Source of the DNA: Haloarcula halophila
Lineage (GTDB): Archaea > Halobacteriota > Halobacteria > Halobacteriales > Haloarculaceae
DNA length: 64,000 bases
Assembly: GCF_029278565.1 (NCBI RefSeq)
Contig: NZ_CP119559.1
Location: forward strand, 1,736,001 to 1,800,000
Direction of reading: 5' to 3'
Positions 13,859 to 14,195 of this stretch are shown here, one piece after another. A program made the position numbers and the translations under genes. The notes beneath the pieces were generated by a model. It was not told the origin of the DNA and searched no databases. It saw only the letters and a list, made by a program, of their open reading frames with translations. The stretch's first letter is position 1; each line of letters starts with the position of its first letter.

Positions 13859-13930
13859 GCCTGGGTAGCTTAGCGGTAAAGCGCGTCCTTGGTAAGGACG
13901 AGACCCCGGATTCAAATTCCGGCCTAGGCT
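13859..13930 (+). tRNA. tRNA-Thr (anticodon GGT)
   Basis: A complete 72-nt cloverleaf: acceptor GCCTGGG/CCTAGGC (one G-T pair), D-arm GCTT/AAGC, anticodon stem CGTCC/GGACG with loop TTGGTAA (anticodon GGT), T-arm CCGGA/TCCGG with loop TTCAAAT, discriminator T. No intron. The 3' part of this tRNA is repeated 132 nt downstream; see the repeat entry. Confidence 0.96.
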
Positions 13931-14065
13931 TTTGCCGACTTCATTTCTGCGAGGCGCTCCGTCGCCGAGCGACTGCTGAAGTCGGCAAACCGGTAGCGGG
14001 ATTTGAATCCCTGGAAGACGAGCGTAGCGAGTCTTCCTCTGGTTCAAATTCCGGCCCAGGCTTTT
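13911..14065 (+). repeat. Duplicated tRNA-Thr 3' end flanking nested palindromes (att-like scar)
   Basis: The 23-nt 3' end of tRNA-Thr with its T-tract (13911-13933) recurs at 14043-14065 with a single mismatch. Between them are three inverted repeats: TTTGCCGACTTCA (13931-13943) with TGAAGTCGGCAAA (13977-13989), a perfect 13-bp pair. GGGATT/AATCCC pairs 13998-14003 with 14006-14011 and reads as a T-arm in the minus direction. GGAAGAC/GTCTTCC pairs 14013-14019 with 14031-14037. Direct duplication of a tRNA 3' end is the footprint left by tyrosine-recombinase integration. Here the intervening element is only about 110 nt, so a deletion remnant is likely. Confidence 0.65.
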
Positions 14066-14195
14066 CACGCGAACGACTGACCCGAAGGGAGCGACAGGTC
14101 CGGAGGGCGTCGAAAGCCGGACGAGTCCACCGCCACTCCCAATCACCCGACACAGTCGGGTCAGATTTTTCTTCCGTCGCCGACGATATCCGACA

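Follow-up and report, generated by a model that had tools for sequence, protein, structure and literature searches.

Short palindromic units 3' of haloarchaeal tRNA genes: a candidate family of mobile non-coding elements recombining at the T-loop

The window analysed here is a stretch of 64,000 nucleotides from Haloarcula halophila (NZ_CP119559.1, positions 1,736,001 to 1,800,000), in which the 3' end of a tRNA-Thr gene is present twice, with palindromic DNA between the two copies. This raises the question of what separates a tRNA gene from a second copy of its own end. The first-pass annotation offered two answers, an excised or degraded integrative element, or a mobile palindromic unit that targets tRNA genes. 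The analysis leads us to favour, with moderate confidence, the view that 13931-14062 belongs, as a single unit, to a family of short non-coding elements spread over the whole order; these would be mobile, recombine at the T-loop and restore the tRNA gene.

The host gene is a tRNA-Thr with the anticodon GGT (13859-13930, + strand), called by ARAGORN and scoring 66.8 bits with the Rfam tRNA model; its T-loop core, TTCAAAT, lies at 13911-13917. All features of the unit are given on the same (+) strand. An hp module of type A (13931-13989) begins right at the 3' end of the tRNA. Its arms, 13931-13943 and 13977-13989, form a perfect 13-bp inverted repeat with 33 nt in between, as the first-pass annotation had reported, and in a relative (G025) the hp module 3' of tRNA-Thr is 93% identical to it. 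The next element is an inverted T-arm (I, 13997-14010), also seen at first pass, which is 93% complementary to 13908-13921 and whose core, ATTTGAA (14001-14007), pairs with the copy at 14043. It is followed by a tip hairpin (14008-14042), with a base helix made of GGAAGAC (14013-14019) and GTCTTCC (14031-14037), and by the direct copy of the tRNA 3' end from the T-loop onward (D, 14043-14062), to the left of which the sequence is derived from the unit. The repeat of the tRNA tail was verified: 13904-13933 recurs at 14036-14065, at a spacing of 132 nt, with 87% identity over 30 nt. Only about 110 nt of hairpins lie between the end of the T-loop and the second copy, where an integrative element would have an integrase or other genes. 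The three palindromes described initially are present, with one refinement: the tip comes after the inverted T-arm and before the second 3'-end copy, and the three make up one long palindrome. In it, I is paired with the copied T-arm, and the tip forms the top of the structure. Downstream, 14063-14125 is probably a worn second hp module resembling type C, with no palindrome after it; this weak assignment was made by eye, and the segment folds no better than its shuffles (z +1.0, 175/200 as good).

Folded as DNA, the 59-nt hairpin is far more stable than shuffled sequences (z = -5.2, 0/200 shuffles as good), and the 66-nt palindrome is so to a lesser extent (z = -3.0, 3/200); the segment 13931-14075, folded as RNA, gives z = -3.8 (0/200). 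The recurrence of the structure at other tRNAs is stronger evidence against chance than the folding of this unit. Besides tRNA, the Rfam search returned one sub-threshold match to the Giardia RNase MRP over the tRNA and the unit (24.2 bits for a cut-off of 60), which was taken as chance, and 13931-14130 had no match in named plasmids.

The first-pass annotation had also suggested a genome-wide search with the 13-bp hairpin. This search returned no other full copy in this genome and only pieces of 17-23 nt; the shared part is the palindrome. All 41 chromosomal RF00005 matches were scanned with at most 700 nt of downstream DNA each (19 more matches on C3 were left unscored). At 15 of the 41, the last 24 nt of the tRNA gene recur 78-205 nt downstream. 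The copies have 0-6 mismatches, and none of 100 base shuffles of the DNA downstream gave as few; at most of these 15 loci the order is the same: tRNA 3' end, hp, I core, tip, D. Two units stand in tandem behind tRNA-Leu(TAG) at C1:101471.

A covariance model of the I-tip-D palindrome, R2, was built from 13 hand-trimmed units, an earlier model (R1) having been set aside because its arms were out of register. In the seed alignment 90.2% of the cells pair (shuffles, 79.5%), and changes on both sides affect 29 cells (shuffles, 9.5), figures which alone prove little because the seed was trimmed to structure. R2 matches the window at 13995-14055 (C1:1749995-1750055, + strand) with 68.8 bits and an E value of 3.4e-11, the window unit being itself one of the 13 seeds. 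In the Haloarcula halophila genome, once antisense duplicates of the same places are removed (7 of 25 rows), R2 finds 18 sense places at E <= 1: 16 are within about 250 nt 3' of a tRNA, one is 1.3 kb 3' of a tRNA, and the remaining one is inside a tRNA of a cluster on C3. Next to the tRNA-Leu at 508169-508252, the region C1:507809-508133 contains two copies of GGAAGACTGCAACGGAGCGGTCTTCC 299 nt apart, and at +205 the tRNA 3' end is repeated over 24 nt without a mismatch. R2 has no match at this locus, which shows that the model misses some unit types. A 25-nt tip hairpin, similar but not identical, occurs at C3:152997 with no called tRNA within 1.5 kb, so that the tip alone is not bound to tRNAs.

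Within the order, where no more than 17 candidates were scored in each genome, R2 has a match at E <= 0.001 in 276 of the 293 genomes. In a sample of 246 genomes from the phylum, examined with stricter filters, 41 match, and all 41 are the own genome or belong to the same genus, family or order. Record names among the loci that carry the pattern include Halorubrum, Haloarcula, Halosimplex and Halobacterium. Two bacterial contigs among these loci have no R2 match. One exact match to the pattern in the virus database IMG/VR falls in an apparent phage coding region without a tRNA and was taken as chance.

The linkage to tRNA genes was quantified in three single-contig genomes from three families, with 125 RF00005 matches and 102 sense R2 matches at E <= 0.01, after removal of antisense duplicates (12 of 114). 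Ninety-nine of the 102 units lie within 1.5 kb 3' of a tRNA and on the same strand, which is not the dispersion over varied targets by which MITEs are recognised. The first units begin 28-272 nt 3' of the tRNA, and 17/42, 21/41 and 21/42 tRNAs carry arrays of 1-5 units each in the three genomes. The units are 72-172 nt long, non-coding and palindromic. Two of the three unlinked units have arms that match a tRNA lying 11 kb upstream in one case and 54 kb in the other, and are preceded by a partial repeat of the end of that tRNA; they look as if they had been pushed away by an integrated element. The third is preceded by a partial tRNA end and has no clear host. A second count covered loci that had been chosen for carrying the pattern, 80 of 120 of which entered the R2 search of named loci. 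After removal of 11 antisense duplicates out of 104, 80 of 93 sense matches are at most 1.3 kb from a called tRNA; among the remaining 13, several are truncated by the end of a contig or lie behind an integrated element.

The arrays include exact tandem copies and units in the orders ABAB and ABA. In L279, units 1 and 3 have a common hp and units 1 and 2 a common tip, which indicates reassortment of modules. The hp sequence TTCTGCGACGAACGGACGTGAGGAGCGAA, of 29 nt, is present behind three tRNAs, each of them a different one and from a different genus (G004, L278, L284). The hp and tip modules, for example those of L278, L283 and L284, often contain CGAAC...GTGAG or CGAGC...GCGAG, a motif counted in 98 of 168 tips; it could give rise to tandem G.A pairs, restricted to the tRNA-sense strand.

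From the T-loop onward, D is identical to the host tRNA at 93-100% per position, a figure partly true by construction as near-matches (at most 3 of 12 nt) were selected. To the left of the T-loop, over 167 units, D agrees with the host at the common GG (0.93 and 0.92) and the agreement is lost at the third base (0.29). Unit copies begin at the T-loop. In 168 units, the likeness of I to the host exceeds the background over the core and some four bases of the T-stem, and nowhere else. The copies are also specific to their host: the own tRNA fits the downstream core within 3 of 12 nt in 109/164 cases, while 3.4% is expected for other tRNAs, a comparison which tests specificity and not frequency since the loci were chosen for carrying the pattern. 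Among the cores with I upstream, 173 fit their own tRNA, 4 another one (1 of them clearly) and 28 no catalogued tRNA end. The only clear foreign unit is found in G027, where a unit ending in the 3' end of tRNA-Asp (12/12 nt) lies inside a tRNA-Thr array. The other candidates for such crossing are not clear: a second one in G027, near a Gly end, is ambiguous, the host of L071 was wrongly called and the unit in L207 may belong to an uncalled tRNA-Phe.

The tRNA-Thr locus differs between relatives. By hand count, R2 units are present at tRNA-Thr in 22 of 37 genomes examined, some of them behind large inserts. The sequence of G016 behind its integrated element and that of G004 are 93.4% identical over 527 nt, the likeness starting exactly at a T-loop in both. 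In G004, a further 249 nt, corresponding to two units, separate this T-loop from the tRNA. In the pairs G009/G027 and G003/G018, the flanks are alike from the last copy on and the units are different. These gains or losses are differences between species, and none was found within one species. The ends of BLAST alignments are no guide to the breakpoints, as the alignments always run through the shared arms.

An insertion site is visible in tRNA-Cys genes. In the C3 cluster (C3:240146-240288, L009 3647-3789), the T-loop of tRNA-Cys is split by a 69-nt hp-tip insert. In G031, the tRNA-Cys has the same neighbours (Asn, Cys, Glu) and is unsplit, with 48/55 and 20/20 nt identical on the two sides. 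The T-loop of tRNA-Cys is also split, by different inserts, in two other genera of the family (C3 of G285 and C2 of G302). Both tRNA parts are well kept in the split genes. No bulge-helix-bulge motif was evident by eye at the insert, splicing having been considered, and the C3 tRNA-Cys stretch had no match in named phages. By reading, target duplication at tRNA-Cys amounts at most to a 4-nt ambiguity (CGGT), whereas the arrays duplicate the tRNA 3' end. The tRNA-Cys inserts have no spare 3' end; they therefore reveal the entry point, not the whole process by which arrays arise. The cluster itself, outside the window, groups more than 20 tRNA genes at C3:237543-242356, on the 363-kb C3. One of its tRNAs matches haloarchaeal plasmids, and a gene with a TROVE domain (Ro60-like) is nearby in the 6 records examined. 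TROVE genes accompany 20 of 29 archaeal tRNA clusters, according to PMC6333295.

Taken as a whole, these data are consistent with the following mechanism. A unit would recombine with a tRNA gene at the T-loop core, 7 nt long (TTCRAAT), and so enter it. As the unit would supply a tRNA 3' end of its own, the gene would be whole again and the old 3' end would be pushed downstream, where it would be seen as D. The I-tip-D palindrome would serve as a recombination site at the DNA level, I pairing with the copied T-loop across the junction, and would be recognised more by its structure than by its sequence. Our first guess for the mover is a tyrosine recombinase acting in trans. The arrays may later gain, lose and rearrange units, and the same tRNAs are separately used by larger integrative elements. 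The numbers of Phage_integrase matches, 2-8 in 8 genomes without R2 matches and 4-13 in 8 unit-rich genomes, overlap and do not separate the two groups. Several observations count against this mechanism: no enzyme was found, gains or losses were seen between species only, the tRNA-Cys inserts, lacking a spare 3' end, do not represent the same event as the arrays, and identical and ABAB repeats could stem from ordinary recombination. The pairing of the cores almost as often with shuffled tips, the lack of a strand preference in the fold energy, the selection of near-matches for D and the 28 cores without a catalogued tRNA end also weigh against it. A more specific form of the proposal is an integron-like system at tRNA T-loops, in which non-coding cassettes with a folded site and a spare 3' end would be added, piled up in arrays and rearranged, at as many as half of the tRNA genes, by a dedicated recombinase acting on DNA hairpins; we regard it as less likely than not.

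The palindrome might instead act as RNA, the units being fail-safe terminators, trailer elements or small RNAs produced together with the tRNA, with a structure under RNA selection. Their presence throughout the order would fit this idea, and so would the conserved tip: a helix at its base is found in 160/168 units and covaries (the second pair is C-G in 58, G-C in 48, T-A in 25 and A-T in 14). A T-rich start follows D copies (80/167) as it follows tRNAs with units (58/133) and without (63/144), and PMC5852579 describes in Haloferax mediterranei at least 12 small RNAs in intergenic stretches adjoining tRNA genes. However, the tip helix has few wobbles, with G.U in 6 of 800 pairs compared to 74/1060 (7.0%) in the T-stems and 40/1232 (3.2%) in the acceptor stems of tRNAs from the same loci (Fisher, 9e-13 and 1e-4, respectively), a contrast exaggerated by the selection of the tip helix for Watson-Crick pairs. 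In the arms, G.U and A.C are equally frequent in the stem (49:49) and stand at 2:10 in the core, which indicates no strand; nor does the fold energy favour one, the means being equal, with 76 units better on the top strand and 87 on the bottom strand. Folded as DNA, I pairs with D in 167/168 units, and in 158/168 when the tips are shuffled, so the arms alone suffice; a 2/3-nt internal loop is present in 89/168. The rarity of wobbles in the tip and the balance of G.U and A.C in the arms favour, without proving, a palindrome kept at the DNA level. Moreover, the units are patchy at the orthologous tRNA-Thr, and an exact copy of the host 3' end would be needless for an RNA function, which we consider unlikely as their explanation.

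Mobility might also be more passive, with no dedicated mover: rare ancient insertions would have been spread and multiplied as tRNA ends recombined homologously and as slippage and template switching occurred at palindromes. The exact tandem copies and ABAB arrays would be expected from such processes, and the correction of palindromes towards perfect pairing would leave few wobbles. The first 3'-end copy, the repeated insertions into the tRNA-Cys T-loop in three genera and the Asp unit at tRNA-Thr, which has the core alone in common with its host, are nevertheless unaccounted for, which makes this explanation distinctly unlikely. It is quite improbable that the units are non-autonomous elements of the IS200/IS605 type, similar to PATEs or SMRs, for which a Y1 transposase or another factor would put hairpin-ended single strands into the palindromic T-arm. 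Small size, lack of coding sequence, hairpins near both ends and the absence of a long target duplication at tRNA-Cys are all compatible with it, and PMC3119063 reports PATEs and SMRs of this kind from Haloquadratum; but nearly all the units are at tRNA 3' ends, and the sequence to the right of the unit is that of the host tRNA, with which I pairs across the junction. The idea of a remnant of an excised or degraded integrative element draws on the inserts of 1.5-13.3 kb that relatives carry at tRNA-Thr. By eye, two of these, of 9.8 kb (L079, G016) and 6.1 kb (L081, G031), have a tyrosine-recombinase-like gene near one end; both also contain large genes that read like restriction-modification. 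The border of these inserts is different, however. In 9 of 10 cases their 3'-end repeat is 34-56 nt long and extends as far as the anticodon arm (in the tenth, one mismatch ends it at 24 nt), and no I and tip were seen, by reading, directly before these repeats. Larger integrative elements use the same tRNA gene with another border. Among the tRNA-Thr inserts read, none is a full-size element with I-tip-D as its right end. With the conserved internal anatomy, the uniform small size and the arrays of up to five units, this makes a remnant very improbable. There is good support for the other proposal of the first-pass annotation, a mobile palindromic unit targeting tRNA genes, in the many copies, nearly all at tRNA 3' ends, the variable length of the arrays between relatives and the T-loop insertion. 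An identical layout in all relatives, with no larger insertion and no other copies, was what that annotation held would speak against an element, and the opposite was found on all three points.

If the reading as mobile units recombining at the T-loop is true, tRNA genes throughout an order anchor a mobile non-coding cassette system, which could be overlooked because its pieces resemble att scars or tRNA fragments, and which is based on a recombination site that repairs its own target. This would help to explain why the DNA 3' of haloarchaeal tRNAs is divergent between relatives. It would also turn into testable questions the identity of the mover, the strand that it uses, the effect of the units on tRNA transcription, and their competition with viruses and plasmids which integrate at the same genes.

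The openly licensed literature, in the parts available, describes integrative elements, tRNA fragments, PATEs and SMRs, archaeal integrons, tRNA clusters and small RNAs adjacent to tRNAs; these arrays were not found there. We know of no family which combines these traits, and the combination is provisionally considered as new. The units resemble integron cassette arrays and their attC sites in that they are in tandem at one entry point, with paired outer arms, an internal loop, a covarying inner helix and a variable tip. The fold is of the attC style (core paired in 167/168 units, 2/3-nt loop in 89/168, inner helix in 160/168). The attC boxes are RYYYAAC and GTTRRRY; by eye they are absent from the units, the core of which reads GTTCRAAT and ATTYGAAC. 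Unlike integrons, the units are non-coding, appear to have no integrase attached and would enter at the tRNA T-loop, and the likeness to attC sites is a functional analogy only. The words Halobacter and Halo are absent from the text of the paper on archaeal integrons (PMC9668308).

The SMR-A elements of Haloquadratum, as presented in the accessible part of PMC3119063, are about 110 bp long and insert into palindromes, their mover being unknown, and members of an SMR type are more than 95% identical. The present units are, like PATEs and SMRs, short, non-coding and palindromic. PATEs and SMRs cause no target duplication, to be compared with the 4-nt ambiguity at tRNA-Cys and the duplicated tRNA 3' end of the arrays; in contrast, that part of the source does not describe PATEs and SMRs at tRNA genes or with a copy of the 3' end of the target, and the units are diverse. 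In the available text of PMC9897764, fragments of archaeal tRNA genes are explained by integrations of 9-23 kb and by a CRISPR spacer; partial tRNA 3' ends in the genome are common to both cases, but short palindromic units are not the cause given there. Archaeal integrative elements that target tRNA genes use tyrosine recombinases, and the T stem-loop is one of their attachment regions, according to PMC8371274. The units would target the 3' part of the tRNA, restore the gene and leave a 3'-end repeat as these elements do; the integrative elements carry genes and measure kilobases, whereas the units are 72-172 nt long, non-coding, palindromic and arrayed, and have another repeat border than the elements found at the same tRNA.
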